Assembly: GCA_016471375.1 (NCBI GenBank)
Contig: WGLZ01000035.1
Location: forward strand, 1-62,123
Source: Cyanobacteria bacterium RI_101
GTDB lineage: Bacteria; Cyanobacteriota; Cyanobacteriia; Cyanobacteriales; Microcystaceae
Direction of reading: 5' to 3'
DNA length: 62,123 nt
Below are positions 37,281 to 45,694 of the stretch, one piece after another (position 1 is the stretch's first letter; every line of letters starts with the position of its first letter). The notes beneath the pieces were generated by a model. It worked only from the letters and a program-made list of their open reading frames with translations, was not told where the DNA came from and made no database searches. A program made the translations under genes and the position numbers.

Positions 37281-37445
37281 TAGGGCGGGCGCGCATCTAC
37301 CCATCAGCTTCCTTTTGCCCCCCAGCCCCCCAACTTTGGGGGGAGTTCGGCGCTTTTCTGAGTTCAAAGTCGGCCAGAATGGGGGGATTGTCCCACTGGA
37401 CTCCACTGGGCTTGCCGAAGCGAGCCTGCCGAAGCGTAGGGGGCG
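37281..37445. repeat. Dispersed intergenic repeat, copy 1
   Basis: Contains 'CATCTACCCATCAGC' and a CCCCCCAACTTTGGGGGG palindrome, then 'AGTTCGG.GCTTTTCTGAG'. The same series recurs at about 57620-57690 and 62000-62080. Nested inside is 'CACTGGACTCCACTG', shared with 61843 and, inverted, with about 60950. It separates dprA from the small gene. Confidence 0.8.
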
Positions 37446-37486
37446 AGATAATGACGAAACCCAAGGCTTTGTGTGTATCCCGTAGG

Positions 37487-38617
37487 TCATCCCTGGGGGC
37501 CGCCGACCCTTTGGTAGCGCATTCCCGGTAGTTGGGCGACCAGCCCCAGAAGTTCTAGCTGTAAGAGTTCCCCCGACACTGTCCCCGTGTCTAAGCCGCA
37601 CCGTTGAACGACGCTATCGAAACTCAGGGGTTCGAGGGAAACAGCGCCGTAAACCTGGAGCGTCAAGGGGGCTAAGTCCGGCGCCGGGGGCAGGAGGGAA
37701 AGTTGTTGTCCCTGGGGAGCGTCCAATGGCGGGAGAACGCCTAAATTACTCAGTAATTCGTCTAAATCCACAATCACTTCGGCGCCGTTGTGGATCAGGC
37801 GCAGACAACCCCGGGCCTCCTCTACTTCCGGGGAGTTGGGCAAGGTGTAGACGTCCCGGTTAAACTCCGTCGCGTAACGGGCCGTAATCAGGGAGCCGGA
37901 TTTAGTCGGCGCTTCCAAGACCAGAATTCCCCGACAGAGGCCGGCGATAATACGATTGCGGGCGGGAAAGTTGCCCCGGTCGGGTTTGGTTCCCCGGGGG
38001 TATTCGCTGAGAATTAACCCCTTTTGGGTTATTTCTTGAAACAGATCCCGGTGTTGGGGCGGGTAAATTAAATCTAAGCCGGTGCCCAGGACGCCCCAGG
38101 TGCGGCCCCCGGCGTCCAGACAACTGCGGTGGGCTTCGCCGTCAATGCCCGCGGCTAAACCGGAGACCACCACAAAACCGTGTTGGGCCAAACCGCGGCT
38201 AATTTTGATTGTCCAGCGCCGGCCGTGCTCCGTGGGAAAGCGAGTGCCGACCAGGGCGATGGCGGGAACGGCGCCTTGATTTTCCAAGGGATTGACAAGG
38301 CCTTGATAGTACAGAACAGGGGGCGGACTGGGGGTTTCCCAAAGGAGGCGGGGATAGTCCGGGTCCGCGGGCGTCCAGAACAGAGGGTTTTGGGCCAGGT
38401 GACGGGCGTAAAACTCGGCGGGATCTAAAGTTTGGCGGGCCTGAAGAATTTGGGTCACCAGTTTTTCCCCCAGACCGTGCACCGTTCCCAGGGCCCTGGG
38501 GGTGGCTTTCCAAGCGTTTTCCAGGGTTTCAAAATGCTGGCAAACCCGTTTGAGGAGAACCGGCCCCAATCCGGGGATCTGGGACCAAGCCAACCAATAA
38601 AGACGGTCGTGTTCCAC
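37487..38617 (-). CDS. dprA: DNA-processing protein DprA
   Basis: DprA loads RecA onto incoming single-stranded DNA during natural transformation. The 376-residue protein has an N-terminal helical SAM-like part ('WSQIPGLGPVLLKRVCQHF'), the Rossmann DprA core ('VGTRFPTEHGRR', 'VVSGLAAGIDGEAHRSCLDA', 'NFPARNRIIAGLCRGILVLE') and a C-terminal winged helix ('SFDSVVQRCGLDTGTVSGEL'). It starts with GTG; GAGGTGG precedes it, and kaiB ends 9 bp upstream, so dprA is probably transcribed with the clock genes. Clock control of competence is known in Synechococcus elongatus; whether this linkage reflects it is inference. Confidence 0.94.
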   Translation of the reverse strand: MEHDRLYWLAWSQIPGLGPVLLKRVCQHFETLENAWKATPRALGTVHGLGEKLVTQILQARQTLDPAEFYARHLAQNPLFWTPADPDYPRLLWETPSPPPVLYYQGLVNPLENQGAVPAIALVGTRFPTEHGRRWTIKISRGLAQHGFVVVSGLAAGIDGEAHRSCLDAGGRTWGVLGTGLDLIYPPQHRDLFQEITQKGLILSEYPRGTKPDRGNFPARNRIIAGLCRGILVLEAPTKSGSLITARYATEFNRDVYTLPNSPEVEEARGCLRLIHNGAEVIVDLDELLSNLGVLPPLDAPQGQQLSLLPPAPDLAPLTLQVYGAVSLEPLSFDSVVQRCGLDTGTVSGELLQLELLGLVAQLPGMRYQRVGGPQG

Positions 38618-38626
38618 CCGCCACCT

Positions 38627-38920
38627 CTAACGCTCAAAATCCAATTCGGCGGGGAGAATATCCAATCCAAGCAAAACTCTTTGGGTGTTGGACATATCGC
38701 CGATGATCCGCTGGAGGGGCGGCGGCAGTTGTTTAATCAACGTCGGGGTCACCATCACCTTTTCCTGCTCGGCCCGGTGGGGTTGTTCCAACACGTCGAT
38801 AATTTCCACGGCGTACTGATTATTCAACTCCTCCCGACAGATGCGGTAAATATTGGCAATGGCCTGCTGGGAGCGGAGGGAATTACCGGTGATATAGAGC
38901 CGGAGTAGGTATTGATCCAT
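38627..38920 (-). CDS. kaiB3: KaiB-family clock protein (KaiB3 type)
   Basis: A 97-residue thioredoxin-fold protein. 'LRLYITGNSLRSQQAIANI', 'YAVEIIDVLEQPHRAEQEKV', 'VTPTLIKQLPPPLQRIIGDM' and 'VLLGLDILP' are the KaiB pattern. KaiB binds phosphorylated KaiC and sequesters KaiA. It departs from standard KaiB at several positions and lies next to a KaiA-like protein with a receiver domain, the arrangement of kaiA3-kaiB3 in Synechocystis (sll0485-sll0486). The '3' subtype is inferred from that synteny. KaiC is absent: dprA takes the place expected for kaiC. Five bp separate it from kaiA. Confidence 0.85.
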   Translation of the reverse strand: MDQYLLRLYITGNSLRSQQAIANIYRICREELNNQYAVEIIDVLEQPHRAEQEKVMVTPTLIKQLPPPLQRIIGDMSNTQRVLLGLDILPAELDFER

Positions 38921-38925
38921 GAAGC

Positions 38926-39813
38926 TTAGGGCAAATTCCCGGGGGGATTGGGCGCCGATAAATTAAGGGTGCTCAAGCCAATATAATACTTACGATAAAA
39001 GGAGGTGAGATAGCCCATCAGTTCTAAAACGAGTAAGCGCCCTTCGTTGACATAGCCCTGGGCTTTAGCGAGGGGAACATCCCGACTTTTCTGTTTGAGG
39101 GTCTGGGTATGGAGTTCGATCACGTCCCGAGGGCTGGCTTTCAGGAAACCCATCTTATCCGCCAACGCCCGGAGACGATCCGACAGTTGGTGCTCGACTC
39201 GAAACATTCTCTGCTCCAAGGCTAAATCTAACAGTTGTCCGTAACTCTGGCTCAATTCCTGAAATAACTCCGGCAGGGACTCCCGGATGGTTTCCACCCC
39301 GAACATGCGGGCGGTAATGGGGGCGCTGGACTGGGCTAAGGACTCCAGTTGGGCGAATTCTTGTCTCTGCTGAGCCAGGCGTTGCCGTTGGGCCAGATCG
39401 TTGCGGTATTGTTGGCGCTCCCTCGCGGCCAAAACCTCGTAAATTAACAGACTACTATCCAAGTGTTTGAGGCGCAGATAGCCGTCGGCGCCGTGTTGGA
39501 AGGCCTGAATAACGAGGGTTTCGTCCTCTTCTTCGGTAAAAGCGATAATGGCGGTGTTCTCCCAACGGTTCCGTAGATCCGCGAGGATATCCGGCGCCTG
39601 ACCCCCGGCCAGTTGCAGATCCAATAAAACGACGTCCGCGGGAAAAGCGGGGGCGGTCTCGGCGGATTCCGGCGGCGCCGAAAGTTGAGTGACTTGAAAG
39701 TCCAGAGCTTGGGCGGTTTTCAGCACATCCTCGGCTTGCAATAACGCCTGAATTCGCTCCGCGACGGCCGGTTCATCCTCAATCAATAGCACTTGGCAAG
39801 ACTGCTGACTCAT
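38926..39813 (-). CDS. kaiA3: KaiA3-like clock protein: receiver domain plus KaiA-type C-terminus
   Basis: A 295-residue protein. The N-terminal 120 residues look like a genuine receiver domain: acidic pair in 'LLIEDEP' (E12, D13), putative phospho-acceptor D65 in 'VVLLDLQLAGG', T93 in 'IIAFTEEED' and a Lys at 116. Standard KaiA has a pseudo-receiver lacking the phospho-Asp. The C-terminal part ('SPRDVIELHTQTL', 'NEGRLLVLELMGYLTSFYRK') resembles the KaiA C-terminal helical domain that stimulates KaiC. This fusion fits KaiA3, known from Synechocystis as a chimeric KaiA working with KaiB3 and KaiC3. ATG at 39813 used; a TTG two codons earlier also opens the frame. First gene of kaiA3-kaiB3-dprA. 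Confidence 0.78.
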   Translation of the reverse strand: MSQQSCQVLLIEDEPAVAERIQALLQAEDVLKTAQALDFQVTQLSAPPESAETAPAFPADVVLLDLQLAGGQAPDILADLRNRWENTAIIAFTEEEDETLVIQAFQHGADGYLRLKHLDSSLLIYEVLAARERQQYRNDLAQRQRLAQQRQEFAQLESLAQSSAPITARMFGVETIRESLPELFQELSQSYGQLLDLALEQRMFRVEHQLSDRLRALADKMGFLKASPRDVIELHTQTLKQKSRDVPLAKAQGYVNEGRLLVLELMGYLTSFYRKYYIGLSTLNLSAPNPPGNLP

Positions 39814-39954
39814 TCTCAAAGGGGGGGGGCGGCGCCGGAAGTTGCTACCTTTAAAGCTTAAGCTGATTTTTCCGTCGGGGTTTCTTTTGCGATAAATCTT
39901 AAGATTTCCCCGTTAAACTGCCTCTAACCCTACAATTCTCCCCCTGTGAAAGCG

Positions 39955-40830
39955 ATGACCCAACCCAAAATCGGCATTATCGGCGGTAGCGGCCTCTACC
40001 AAATGGAAGCGCTGCAGAATCTCCGGGAGGTAAAGCTAGAAACGCCCTTCGGCGCCCCCTCCGACGCCTATCTATTGGGGGAACTCGCCGGGACGCCGGT
40101 GGCCTTTTTAGCCCGCCACGGTCGGGGACATCGTTTCCTCCCCAGCGAAATTCCCTTCCGGGCGAATATCCACGGTTTTAAACAGTTGGGCGTCGAGTAT
40201 TTGATCTCGGTGTCCGCAGTCGGCTCCTTAACGGCCAGTATTAAGCCCCTAGATCTCGTCCTGCCGGATCAGTTTATCGACCGCACCCGGGGCCGCGTCT
40301 CCACCTTTTTTGGGGAAGGCGTCGTCGCCCACATCGGCTTTGGCAAGCCCGTTTGCTCCCGCTTGGCGGCGGTGATGGGGGACGCGATTGAGAGTTTAAA
40401 TCTGCCGGAGGCGACTCTCCACCGGGAAGGAACCTATGTCTGCATGGAGGGGCCGGCCTTTTCCACCCTCGCGGAGTCGGAACTCTACCGGAGTTGGGGG
40501 GGAAGCGTCATCGGCATGACCAACCTACCGGAGGCGAAACTGGCTCGGGAAGCGGAACTGGCCTACGCCACCCTGGCGCTGGTGACGGATTACGACTGCT
40601 GGCACCCGGAACACGCCCAGGTGACGGTGGAGATGATTCTGGACAACCTACAGCGCAATGTCAGCAACGCCCAGGCCGCGATCCTCGAAACCGTCCGGCG
40701 CCTCGGGGAAAATCCGCCGCCTTCCTCGGCCCATTCGGCGCTGAAACACGCTATCTATACCCGATTAGACCAGGCGCCGCCGGAGACCCTAGAGAAACTG
40801 CGCCTCCTCCTAGGGAAATACTTGCCCTAA
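39955..40830 (+). CDS. mtnP: S-methyl-5'-thioadenosine phosphorylase
   Basis: MtnP cleaves methylthioadenosine to adenine and methylthioribose-1-phosphate in methionine salvage. The 291 residues begin '[20 protein letters not shown]'. '[20 protein letters not shown]', 'ISVSAVGSL', '[20 protein letters not shown]' and '[20 protein letters not shown]' are the purine-nucleoside-phosphorylase-type signatures, MTAP subgroup. A GTG at 39946 opens the frame; the ATG at 39955 matches relatives. A TACAAT box at 39931-39936 would give a very short leader. It is divergent from kaiA3. Confidence 0.95.
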
Positions 40831-40902: not shown

Positions 40903-41166
40903 ATGTTGGCGGGACAGTTTCCGGCGTCCCTCTCGGAGCGCGAGCTTGAAATTTTGGATCTGGTGGCGAGGGGGCTAACCAATTTAGAAATCGCCCAGCG
41001 CCTAGAAATCAGCAAGCGCACGGTGGATAATCACATCAGTAATATTCTCACCAAAACCCGCACTGAAAATAGGGTAGAACTGACGCGCTGGGCCCTGCAA
41101 TGGGGCAAGGTTTGTCTCGACGACGTCAACTGTTGTCCCTTACCGGGCCCCTCGGCGCCGTCTTGA
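40903..41166 (+). CDS. pedR: Small LuxR-type regulator, PedR-like
   Basis: An 87-residue protein that is almost only a LuxR/FixJ helix-turn-helix: 'LSERELEILDLVARGLTNLE', 'IAQRLEISKRTVDNHISNIL'. The C-terminal 'RWALQWGKVCLDDVNCC' with three cysteines is conserved in the cyanobacterial PedR group. PedR of Synechocystis is a regulator whose activity responds to photosynthetic electron transport via thioredoxin, through a Cys. Assignment rests on length, HTH and this Cys-rich tail. There is no receiver domain. A stem-loop follows the stop. Confidence 0.75.
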   Translation: MLAGQFPASLSERELEILDLVARGLTNLEIAQRLEISKRTVDNHISNILTKTRTENRVELTRWALQWGKVCLDDVNCCPLPGPSAPS

Positions 41167-42434: not shown

Positions 42435-43673
42435 ATGGTTTTTTCTCCCGCCGCCAAACCCCTTGCCCTTAGCCCCCAGTCCTACCGGGAGACGCGTCAG
42501 TTCAGCGAACTCCTCTGCCGCCCCCTAGCGGTTGAAGATTACGTTATCCAAAGTATGGCGGACGTCAGTCCTCCTAAATGGCATCTGGCCCATACTACTT
42601 GGTTTTTTGAAACTTTTTTACTGATTCCCCATCTGGCAGGCTACGAGGTTTTCCATCCTCAGTACGGCTACCTCTTTAACTCCTATTACGAAGCCCAGGG
42701 AGAGCGCCACCCCCGGCCCCAAAGGGGTCTTTTGTCCCGCCCGACGGTGGCGGAGATTTATCAATATCGGGCCTATGTGGATCAGGCCATGATTAAGTTA
42801 TTGCCCCGACCCGAATTAGGGGAACTGATTACCTTGGGACTCCACCACGAGCAACAGCATCAAGAATTGCTCTTGATGGACATTAAGCATATTTTGGCCG
42901 TCAATCCTCTGCGCCCGGCCTATCGGAGCGATCTGCCCCCGGCGCCGTCTTTGCAGTCAGAGCCTCTAGAGTGGCGGACTTACCCCGGCGGACTCTACGA
43001 GATTGGCCACTCCGGCGCCGACTTTGCCTTTGACAACGAAACGCCCCGCCATCGTCTTTATCTTCAGGATTTCCAACTGGCGTCTCGGTTAGTCGTAAAC
43101 GGCGAGTATTTAGAATTTATTGAGGCCGGGGGCTACCAAAACCCGGAATATTGGCTTGCGGAAGGCTGGCAGACGGTTAACGCCCAGGGCTGGCAAGCGC
43201 CGCTTTACTGGGAAAAAATCGGCCCGGATTGGGCGGTCATGACCCTAGGGGGCTTAAAGGTTGTCAACCTCGACGAGCCGGTCTGCCACGTCAGTTTCTA
43301 CGAAGCCGACGCCTACGCTCGCTTTCGGGGCCGGCGCTTGCCCACAGAGGCGGAATGGGAACTCGCGGCGAGGAACGAGCGCGCCGAGGGCAATTTTTGC
43401 GAGTCGGGCTACCTCCACCCCGTCCCCGGCAACGGGCAATTTTACGGCGACGTCTGGGAGTGGACCCAAAGCGGTTACGCCCCCTATCCCGGATTCCGTC
43501 CCCTCCAGGGCGCCCTAGGGGAATATAACGGCAAGTTTATGTGCAATCAAATGGTTCTCCGGGGCGGCGCTTGCGTCACGTCCCAGAGCCATATCCGCCC
43601 CACCTATCGCAACTTTTTTCCCCCCGCTTCCCGCTGGCAATTTAGCGGTATTCGCCTAGGAGACGACGCATGA
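42435..43673 (+). CDS. egtB: Hercynine oxygenase EgtB (ergothioneine synthesis)
   Basis: EgtB is a non-heme iron enzyme that adds a thiol-derived sulfoxide to hercynine. The 412 residues have an N-terminal DinB-like domain with iron ligands ('ADVSPPKWHLAHTTWFFETF', 'LGLHHEQQHQELLLMDIKHI', the H-x3-H pair) and a C-terminal formylglycine-enzyme-like domain ('LPTEAEWELAARNE', 'YGDVWEWTQSGYAPYPGF', 'VLRGGACVTSQSHIRPTYRN'). Length is standard. Its stop overlaps the egtD start (ATGA). No egtA or egtC is present, so the thiol donor may be cysteine or glutathione rather than gamma-glutamylcysteine, as in other two-gene systems. Confidence 0.93.
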   Translation: MVFSPAAKPLALSPQSYRETRQFSELLCRPLAVEDYVIQSMADVSPPKWHLAHTTWFFETFLLIPHLAGYEVFHPQYGYLFNSYYEAQGERHPRPQRGLLSRPTVAEIYQYRAYVDQAMIKLLPRPELGELITLGLHHEQQHQELLLMDIKHILAVNPLRPAYRSDLPPAPSLQSEPLEWRTYPGGLYEIGHSGADFAFDNETPRHRLYLQDFQLASRLVVNGEYLEFIEAGGYQNPEYWLAEGWQTVNAQGWQAPLYWEKIGPDWAVMTLGGLKVVNLDEPVCHVSFYEADAYARFRGRRLPTEAEWELAARNERAEGNFCESGYLHPVPGNGQFYGDVWEWTQSGYAPYPGFRPLQGALGEYNGKFMCNQMVLRGGACVTSQSHIRPTYRNFFPPASRWQFSGIRLGDDA

Positions 43674-44629
43674 CCCTGCGCTTTTACGACTTTCACCCCT
43701 CTCTAGGGGATATGCGGACGGAAATTCTCCAGGGTTTAAGACAACCCCAAAAGGCCATTGCCCCCAAATTTCTCTACGATAAAACCGGCGCCGAACTCTT
43801 TAACGCCGTCTGCGAATTGCCGGAATACTATCTCACCCGAGCGGAAATGGCTATTCTCCAGAGCCGGGGAGAAGAAATCGCCCGGTTAATCGGGGACGGC
43901 GCGCTGGTGGAATTTGGGAGCGGCAGTTGCCAAAAAGTGCAAATTCTCCTAGACGCCCAGCGCCGCCTGAATAACGGCGCATTGTCGGCCTATGTCTCCC
44001 TTGATATTTCCAAGGAGCACTTGCTGGAATCCTGCCAAAAACTAGCGGCGCTGTACCCGGAGTTAGAAACCGACGCCATCTGCGCCGACTACACCCAACC
44101 GTTGGTTTGGCCGGAAGAGTTGGCTCGGCGCCGGAAGGTGGGCTTTTTCCCCGGCTCTTCCATTGGTAACTTGGAACCCCAAGAAGCCCTGACATTTTTG
44201 GCCGATAGCCGGCGCCTGTTGGGCCCGGAGGGCGGGCTTTTGATCGGCGTCGATCTGCAAAAAAGCGCCGCTATCCTCGAACCCGCCTACGCCGACGCCC
44301 AGGGGATTTCCGCCGCCTTCGCCCTGAATCTGCTCCGGCGCTTGAATCGGGAACTGGGCGCCGATTTTGACCTTGAGCGATTTACCTATCGGGCCTTTTA
44401 CAATCCCCTGGGACGAATTGAAATGTCTCTAGTCAGTTTACGGGAGCAAACGGTGCGGGTGGCCGGGGAGGTCGTGGTCTTCCGCGCCGGGGAAAGCCTG
44501 CTGACGGAATATTCCTACAAATACTCGGTGGACGGCTTTCAGGCGCTGGCCCGCAAAGCCGGTTATCAACCGAAACAGGTCTGGCTAGACGAGGATCGGC
44601 TTTTTAGCGTCCATTATCTTCAGGTTTAA
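43670..44629 (+). CDS. egtD: L-histidine N-alpha-methyltransferase EgtD
   Basis: EgtD trimethylates histidine to hercynine using SAM, the first step of ergothioneine synthesis. The 319-residue protein has 'PQKAIAPKFLYDKTGAELFN', 'CELPEYYLTRAEMAIL', 'LVEFGSGSCQKVQILLDA' (SAM motif), 'YVSLDISKEHLLESC', 'VGFFPGSSIGNLEPQEAL' and 'LLIGVDLQKSAAIL'. It is coupled to egtB by a 4-bp overlap and followed 3 bp later by thiE. Length is normal. Confidence 0.95.
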   Translation: MTLRFYDFHPSLGDMRTEILQGLRQPQKAIAPKFLYDKTGAELFNAVCELPEYYLTRAEMAILQSRGEEIARLIGDGALVEFGSGSCQKVQILLDAQRRLNNGALSAYVSLDISKEHLLESCQKLAALYPELETDAICADYTQPLVWPEELARRRKVGFFPGSSIGNLEPQEALTFLADSRRLLGPEGGLLIGVDLQKSAAILEPAYADAQGISAAFALNLLRRLNRELGADFDLERFTYRAFYNPLGRIEMSLVSLREQTVRVAGEVVVFRAGESLLTEYSYKYSVDGFQALARKAGYQPKQVWLDEDRLFSVHYLQV

Positions 44630-44632
44630 CCG

Positions 44633-45694
44633 ATGACTTCTAACATGGCTCCCCACTCTCTCCCGCCGACGGCGCTGGCCCGCCTCCTGGACGCCAACCT
44701 GAACCGGGCCCGGGAAGGACTGCGGGTGATTGAGGATTGGTGCCGTTTTGGTCTGGACAATACGGCGCTAACAGAGCGTTGTAAGCAAATTCGGCAGGAA
44801 TTGGCCCCTTGGCACCGGGAAGATCTGCGTCAGGGCAGGGATACGGCCGGGGATGTGGGAACAGCGCTTTCCCACCCCCAGGAAGAGCGCCGTCAGGATC
44901 TCCGGGCCGTTCTCTTGGCCAACCTCTGTCGCGTGCAGGAATCTCTCCGGGTTTTAGAAGAGTACGGCAAACTGCGAGACCCGGAGATGGGCAAGGTCTG
45001 CAAGCGCCTGCGGTATCAGGTTTACATCCTCGAAACAGAGCTTTTTCGCCCCCGACAACATCGGCTAGAGCGCCTGAAGGCGGCGCGGTTATACCTCGTC
45101 ACCTCTCCCCAGCCCAATTTACCGGCCATCGTGGAAGCGGCGCTGGCGGGGGGCTTAACCCTGGTGCAGTACCGGGATAAAACCGCGGAGGACAATCAGC
45201 GTTATGCCCTCGCGTTAGAACTGGCTCGACTCTGCCGCCAGTACGGCGCCCTGTTTTTAGTCAACGACCGCCCGGATCTGGCCCTGGCCGTCGGCGCCGA
45301 CGGGGTTCACCTGGGGCAACAGGATCTTCCCATCGCCGTCGCCCGGAATCTGCTGGGGCCGGATTTAATCATTGGGCGCTCCACCACCAATCCCGAGGAA
45401 ATGGCCCGGGCCCTGGAGGAAGGCGCCGATTATATTGGCGTGGGGCCGATTTATCCGACTCCCACCAAGGCCGGGAAAGCCGCGGCGGGTTTAGACTACG
45501 CCCAATACGCTCGGGATCATGCTTCTATTCCTTGGTTCGCCATCGGCGGCATTGATAACGACAATTTAGAAGTTGTTCTTCAGGCCGGCGCTAAACAGGT
45601 GGCGGTTGTCCGGGCCATTATGGAAGCGCCGGATCCCCGCCAGGCGACCCAGGATTTACTCCAGAAATTAAGCGCAGTTAGGGAGGGCGTTTAA
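44633..45694 (+). CDS. thiE: Thiamine-phosphate synthase with cyanobacterial N-terminal extension
   Basis: ThiE joins HMP-pyrophosphate and thiazole phosphate to thiamine phosphate. In the 353 residues, the first about 140 form a helical extension ('ARLLDANLNRAREGLRVIED', 'LANLCRVQESLRVLEEYGKL') common in cyanobacterial ThiE; the TIM barrel follows with 'LTLVQYRDKTAEDN', 'LFLVNDRPDLALAVGADGVH', 'LIIGRSTTNPEEM', 'ADYIGVGPIYPTPTK' and 'WFAIGGI'. It starts 3 bp after egtD, so it is the third gene of the egt operon. I see no TPP riboswitch upstream. Confidence 0.94.
   Translation: MTSNMAPHSLPPTALARLLDANLNRAREGLRVIEDWCRFGLDNTALTERCKQIRQELAPWHREDLRQGRDTAGDVGTALSHPQEERRQDLRAVLLANLCRVQESLRVLEEYGKLRDPEMGKVCKRLRYQVYILETELFRPRQHRLERLKAARLYLVTSPQPNLPAIVEAALAGGLTLVQYRDKTAEDNQRYALALELARLCRQYGALFLVNDRPDLALAVGADGVHLGQQDLPIAVARNLLGPDLIIGRSTTNPEEMARALEEGADYIGVGPIYPTPTKAGKAAAGLDYAQYARDHASIPWFAIGGIDNDNLEVVLQAGAKQVAVVRAIMEAPDPRQATQDLLQKLSAVREGV

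Follow-up and report, generated by a model that had tools for sequence, protein, structure and literature searches.

The window analyzed here, 62,123 nt of DNA from Cyanobacteria bacterium RI_101, carries what is almost certainly an ordinary operon, kaiA3-kaiB3, belonging to the KaiA3-KaiB3-KaiC3 oscillator already known from Synechocystis-type cyanobacteria. Its kaiC3 gene lies on another contig, and a dprA gene sits directly behind kaiB3 in this genome alone among those examined. The three open frames follow one another on the minus strand as kaiA3 (39813-38926; ATG start, 295 aa, a receiver-KaiA chimera), kaiB3 (38920-38627; 97 aa) and dprA (38617-37487; GTG start, 376 aa). The gap between kaiA3 and kaiB3 is 5 nt, as the original prediction had it, and the gap between kaiB3 and dprA is 9 nt (38618-38626). 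The sequence AGGTGG lies immediately 5′ of the dprA start, and the kaiB3 stop codon (TAG) and the dprA GTG are in the same frame with three codons between them. On the other side of the pair, kaiA3 and a divergent phosphorylase-family gene lie 132 nt apart (39814-39945), and this gap is the sole non-genic room for a kaiA3 promoter. The description of the pair as lacking kaiC, which came with the original prediction, is right for the locus and wrong for the genome, where a KaiC3 is encoded on contig 6.

The layout is the dispersed arrangement already published, in which kaiC3 lies away from kaiA3-kaiB3. According to the available passages on Synechocystis sp. PCC 6803 (sll0485 and partners; Kobler et al. 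2024, PMC11372060), the KaiA3-KaiB3-KaiC3 oscillator has been demonstrated both in vitro and in cells, with KaiA3 raising and KaiB3 lowering the phosphorylation of KaiC3; kaiA3 and kaiB3 are transcribed as a unit there, and kaiC3 is not found behind them in Synechocystis or in Microcystis aeruginosa NIES-843. Knockouts of kaiB3 or kaiC3 in Synechocystis 6803 are described as arrhythmic in the passages available from a second study (PMC9846126). The present locus resembles that of Synechocystis in having kaiA3 directly upstream of kaiB3, a receiver with D65 fused to a KaiA-like C-terminus, kaiC3 elsewhere and a standard kaiAB1C1 cluster in the genome. It differs in that dprA follows kaiB3 directly and in that no KaiB2 was seen in the assembly. 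Compared with the canonical KaiABC system, it shares a KaiA-type C-terminal fold, a KaiB and a KaiC; however, the KaiA3 of the window keeps its receiver residues, and the canonical cluster stands separately on contig 25.

The genome was searched for kaiC1 and kaiC3, a check that had accompanied the original prediction, and both genes were found. A complete canonical cluster, kaiA-kaiB1-kaiC1, is present on contig 25, and a second double-domain KaiC of 512 aa is encoded on contig 6 (L069 7829-9367, minus strand). The latter shares 83-91% identity with the KaiC3s found directly after kaiB3 at 21 other loci, against 55% with the KaiC1 of its own genome. It carries the phospho-site motif HISTITD at S431/T432, as do all 21 syntenic KaiC3s, and its first P-loop reads GTAGSSKT, which is also the form in 14 of these 21, the other 7 having GTAGSAKT. 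Judged by identity and by the shared P-loop and phospho-site motifs, the contig-6 protein is a KaiC3, which agrees with the expectation that KaiC3 would be encoded elsewhere, as in Synechocystis. The first P-loop of all 22 KaiC3s, GTAGS[SA]KT, has no glycine before the lysine; that of the genome's own KaiC1 is GTSGTGKT. Five further KaiC-family places in the genome score 34.2 bits or less. The Pfam KaiA family has a single place, on contig 25. The KaiB family has three in the assembly: KaiB1 on contig 25, KaiB3, and on contig 69 a frame of 397 codons, probably SasA. KaiB2 was not seen among them.

The assignment of the window's KaiB to KaiB3 was examined in a tree of 52 rows comprising the window's protein, 18 KaiB1s and 33 KaiB3s, with identical copies omitted. 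The KaiB1s form a clade with 100/100 support that excludes the window's KaiB, which instead groups with the KaiB3s of its own genus and of genome G418 (98/91, five KaiB3s). Resolution among the KaiB3s is otherwise poor, and a single KaiB3 row with unusual composition (L101) falls next to the KaiB1 clade. The family itself is clear from Pfam KaiB (E 5.6e-31). The protein falls under the cut-offs of both NCBIfam KaiB equivalogs (95.4 against 110 and 88.5 against 145.3), as a divergent KaiB would be expected to do. The tree thus bears out the KaiB3 identity that had been proposed for this gene.

We then compared the gene order with that of other genomes, using 43 KaiA3 loci: 21 full-length or nearly full-length matches from 386 genomes of the phylum and 22 more from 50 genomes of the family, in which such a KaiA3 is present in 35 of the 50. 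In every one of the 43 loci kaiB3 stands behind kaiA3, and because it lies within 400 nt in each case the pairing is not a matter of chance. What follows kaiB3 is far more variable. In 21 loci it is kaiC3, at a distance of 10-324 nt, and the pair in these clusters is the same as ours and is associated with the same KaiC3 family; the window differs from them in having no kaiC3 within this distance. The 22 loci without kaiC3 behind kaiB3 comprise 11 near-alike loci of one genus (g2), 5 of the window's genus, 5 of one family (f8) and G418, and they compare with the two cyanobacterial exceptions named in the available text of PMC11372060. The gene after kaiB3 encodes a methyltransferase in G091; G014 has a convergent tetrapyrrole-methylase-family gene in this place, and G418 has a SIS-domain gene. 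In a sample of five genomes of the genus including our own, none of them close (the nearest DprA is 70% identical), kaiC3 is absent from behind kaiB3 in all four of the others. The simplest course of events is therefore that kaiC3 had left the operon before dprA arrived.

The dprA gene is found behind kaiB3 in 1 of the 43 loci, that of the window, and nowhere in the fetched stretch of the other 42, and conserved kaiB3-dprA synteny was rejected on this count. Full-length KaiA3 occurs in 34 other family genomes, and in 14 of these the relative positions of kaiA3 and dprA were compared. The two genes share a contig in 13 of the 14, at 36 kb in G397, 48 kb in G014 and at least 203 kb in the other 11, and they are on separate contigs in one. 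The upstream neighbor of dprA also changes from genome to genome: in G091 and G076 it encodes a TPR protein, in G386 it encodes a CofD-like protein, and in G014 it is a TatC-like gene on the opposite strand. In 10 of 30 family dprA loci (30 of 44 matches), a frame on the same strand terminates no more than 60 nt upstream of dprA, and the lengths of these frames differ. Within the window itself, a count on mechanically chosen frames gave 11 of 32 same-strand neighbor pairs separated by no more than 20 nt, the kaiA3-kaiB3 and kaiB3-dprA pairs included. Because the neighbors of dprA vary and tight packing is common, a tight kaiB3-dprA gap can arise by ordinary rearrangement, and the position of dprA directly behind kaiB3 appears to be a chance feature of gene order in a single species.

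Whether dprA is transcribed with the pair was approached through the sequence of the region. A scan for sigma-70-like promoters in 37300-40100, the region before kaiA3 included, returned none where 0.9 would be expected; its silence before dprA says little, because the scan was equally empty upstream of kaiA3, where a promoter must exist. TANNNT occurs once in the 303 nt before dprA, against 2.8 expected. Terminator-like sites number five against 3.9 expected by chance, and one of them overlaps the dprA start. The 9-nt gap favors read-through from kaiA3-kaiB3 into dprA, and the promoter and terminator scans add little to it; as far as can be judged from sequence, it is plausible that dprA is carried on the kaiA3-kaiB3 transcript.

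A stronger proposal is that kaiA3-kaiB3-dprA is a functional operon in which the kaiA3 promoter times dprA and so confines the recombination of incoming DNA to one phase of the day. The 9-nt gap with its Shine-Dalgarno-like AGGTGG agrees with this proposal, as do the empty sigma-70 scan and the scarcity of TANNNT before dprA. The genome also encodes a ComEC-type competence protein (PF03772). Furthermore, in the passages available on Synechococcus elongatus (Taton et al. 2020, PMC7125226), expression of dprA reaches its maximum at dusk and is induced in the dark via SigF2, and competence depends on the state of KaiC, so that a Kai clock is tied to dprA expression in that organism. These same passages nevertheless connect the timing of dprA with SigF2 and competence with KaiC and RpaA; they do not mention kai linkage or adjacency, and the word operon is absent from them. 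Clock timing of dprA is thus already on record there with no kai linkage described. The adjacency seen in a single locus of 43, the differing frames that lie close upstream of dprA in a third of the 30 family dprA loci, the frequency of tight spacing in the window and a promoter scan that is silent before kaiA3 too all argue against the functional operon, and we consider it unlikely. Functional coupling of the clock to dprA through a shared transcript, which would be compatible with an ordinary kaiA3-kaiB3 operon, is at best equally doubtful. Slightly less likely again is that the kaiA3-kaiB3 operon of this species captured dprA, which would place the final step of DNA uptake on the messenger of the clock itself and under the second oscillator, with any signal that reaches the KaiA3 receiver, bypassing RpaA and SigF2. 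The original prediction suggested joint regulation of the oscillator and DNA uptake; given an adjacency confined to one locus and an upstream neighbor of dprA that varies, that suggestion lacks support, and a conserved link between clock and uptake is not supported. In the main text of PMC11372060 as available, there is no mention of dprA, competence or pili, and a literature search found no title or abstract beginning concerned with a kaiB3-dprA link, its part on Synechocystis competence and KaiC3 covering the best 12 of 131 records. Only a demonstration that DNA uptake is timed by a shared transcript would give the adjacency significance.

In the ordinary kaiA3-kaiB3 operon, which we prefer, the first gene encodes a KaiA-like protein, and here the two halves of the protein were considered separately. 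The N-terminal half is a NarL-like receiver domain (residues 8-120; 39454-39792, minus strand), and Response_reg is the only Pfam family above its cut-off in the whole protein (E 7.5e-14). The receiver residues E12, D13, D65, T93 and K116 are all present; the phospho-aspartate at D65 (putative phospho-acceptor; codon at 39619-39621, minus strand) had been correctly predicted and numbered. In a full-length alignment of 33 KaiA3 homologues picked from the 43 loci, the window's included, D65 is kept in 24 and K116 in 17, both together in 14, and the D65 column has N, S or G in the remaining 9. Identity of the other KaiA3s to that of the window is 42-61%, and 42-60% for those in the alignment. The absence of the aspartate from 9 of 33 homologues indicates that its phosphorylation is not required everywhere. 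In the alignment described in the available text of PMC11372060, D65 is conserved in all species except Pleurocapsa and Microcystis. Strains with and without the aspartate constitute a natural test of the role of the receiver.

The C-terminal half (residues 163-290; 38944-39327, minus strand) had been predicted to be a KaiA-type helical domain, and this is supported at the level of predicted fold. An AlphaFold2 model of the full-length protein, of moderate quality (mean pLDDT 80.8, pTM 0.49), has a receiver and a separate helical domain, and a fold search with it placed full-length KaiA at rank 7 (4g86) and ranks 21 and 39 (1r8j) among many receivers, with low global TM-scores to KaiA (0.29-0.34 by query). 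The C-terminal 128 residues modeled on their own from 29 sequences gave a mean pLDDT of 87.4. In a Foldseek search of the PDB with this model, ranks 1-6, and also rank 12, were KaiA entries; for the first six the probability was 1.00, with E values of 0.022-0.30 and TM-scores by query of 0.55-0.60, and no match reached an E of 0.001 or better. Sequence profiles point in the same direction with less force. Pfam KaiA is the best family for the C-terminus of the window's protein at 18.3 bits, below the cut-off of 22.2, and at a lax threshold it matches 26 of 29 KaiA3 C-termini (best E 0.00042), followed by RsbU_N with 17 of 29. A profile search of the PDB with the C-terminus ranked KaiA first (E 0.06). 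Alignment by hhalign with 27 KaiA1s of the family found the correct region over 89 columns, with a probability of 5.8% and an E of 0.0066, and the N-terminal domains of KaiA3 and KaiA1 gave a probability of 0.4%; BLAST of KaiA3 against the genome's own KaiA1 gave no significant match (best E 0.21). The comparison of predicted folds is the better evidence here, and a KaiA-type C-terminus is supported by it and weakly by the profiles.

These data also bear on the possibility that kaiA3 encodes a plain NarL-type response regulator and no KaiA. Besides the lone Pfam match to Response_reg, the best NCBIfam match is NarL, far under its cut-off; a PDB search with the single sequence returned receiver-type entries only, with NarL (1a04) ranked second; and the best 60 PDB matches to a profile of the full-length protein are, judged by their names, receivers or receiver-bearing proteins. 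However, the C-terminal model finds KaiA at its first six ranks, the full-length model finds 4g86 and 1r8j, kaiB3 accompanies kaiA3 in all 43 loci, and the Synechocystis orthologue drives KaiC3 phosphorylation according to the passages available from PMC11372060, which together make a plain regulator highly improbable.

The identity of the third gene is unambiguous. Its product matches Pfam DNA_processg_A with 245.6 bits (E 3.8e-73) and DprA_WH, the C-terminal winged helix, with 53.4 bits, and it scores 261.8 bits with NCBIfam TIGR00732, over the cut-off of 191.15. The GTG start at 38617 agrees with the N-termini of many relatives' frames. The main domain of DprA is of the Rossmann type. The original prediction that kaiC had been replaced by dprA, and with it the idea that dprA moved into the place of kaiC3 and that DprA substitutes functionally for KaiC3, draws on the third position of the gene, where 21 of 43 loci have kaiC3, but can be dismissed as next to impossible, since KaiC3 is intact on contig 6, kaiC3 is equally missing from behind kaiB3 in the other four genus members examined and, outside the genus, in G418, and DprA has no match to any KaiC-type family in Pfam.

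Based on these results, we propose that the kaiA3-kaiB3 operon works as in Synechocystis. By analogy with that system, KaiA3 would act on KaiC3 through its KaiA-like domain and drive KaiC3 phosphorylation, and KaiB3 would oppose KaiA3. The receiver may pass a two-component signal into KaiA3. KaiC3 would be supplied from the other contig, in a cell that also has the standard KaiA-KaiB1-KaiC1 clock, and dprA probably receives some read-through from the kaiA3 promoter. The locus extends the KaiA3-KaiB3-KaiC3 clock to one more species and broadens the known range of its gene orders.

Several further observations were made in the course of these comparisons. In two genomes, G181 and G266, kaiA3 is reduced to broken C-terminal pieces that contain stop codons (L030 and L032; L070 and L071). 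Both are single-contig family genomes of 3.0 Mb, and no kaiB3 or kaiC3 is listed beside the remnants; the second clock has apparently been lost in these two. A KaiA3-type C-terminal domain also terminates PAS-chain-like proteins in three genomes of one distant family (f38), G240, G321 and G325. These are encoded at L072 (6777-8528, minus strand) and by frames through 1501-1932 at L033 and L034; the PAS chain is confirmed by Pfam in L072 and was judged by eye, from part of the sequence, in L033 and L034. This domain may thus be a movable output module beyond clocks.

Other genes of the window include a free-standing LuxR-type DNA-binding protein of 87 residues with cysteines in its tail, encoded on the plus strand at 40903-41166, 1.1 kb from kaiA3; we take it to be reminiscent of PedR. 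Farther along the same strand, at 42435-45694, are an EgtB-like and an EgtD-like ergothioneine gene, named here from their Pfam families, which overlap by 4 nt; a gene for thiamine-phosphate synthase with a ThiD2 domain comes 3 nt after them.
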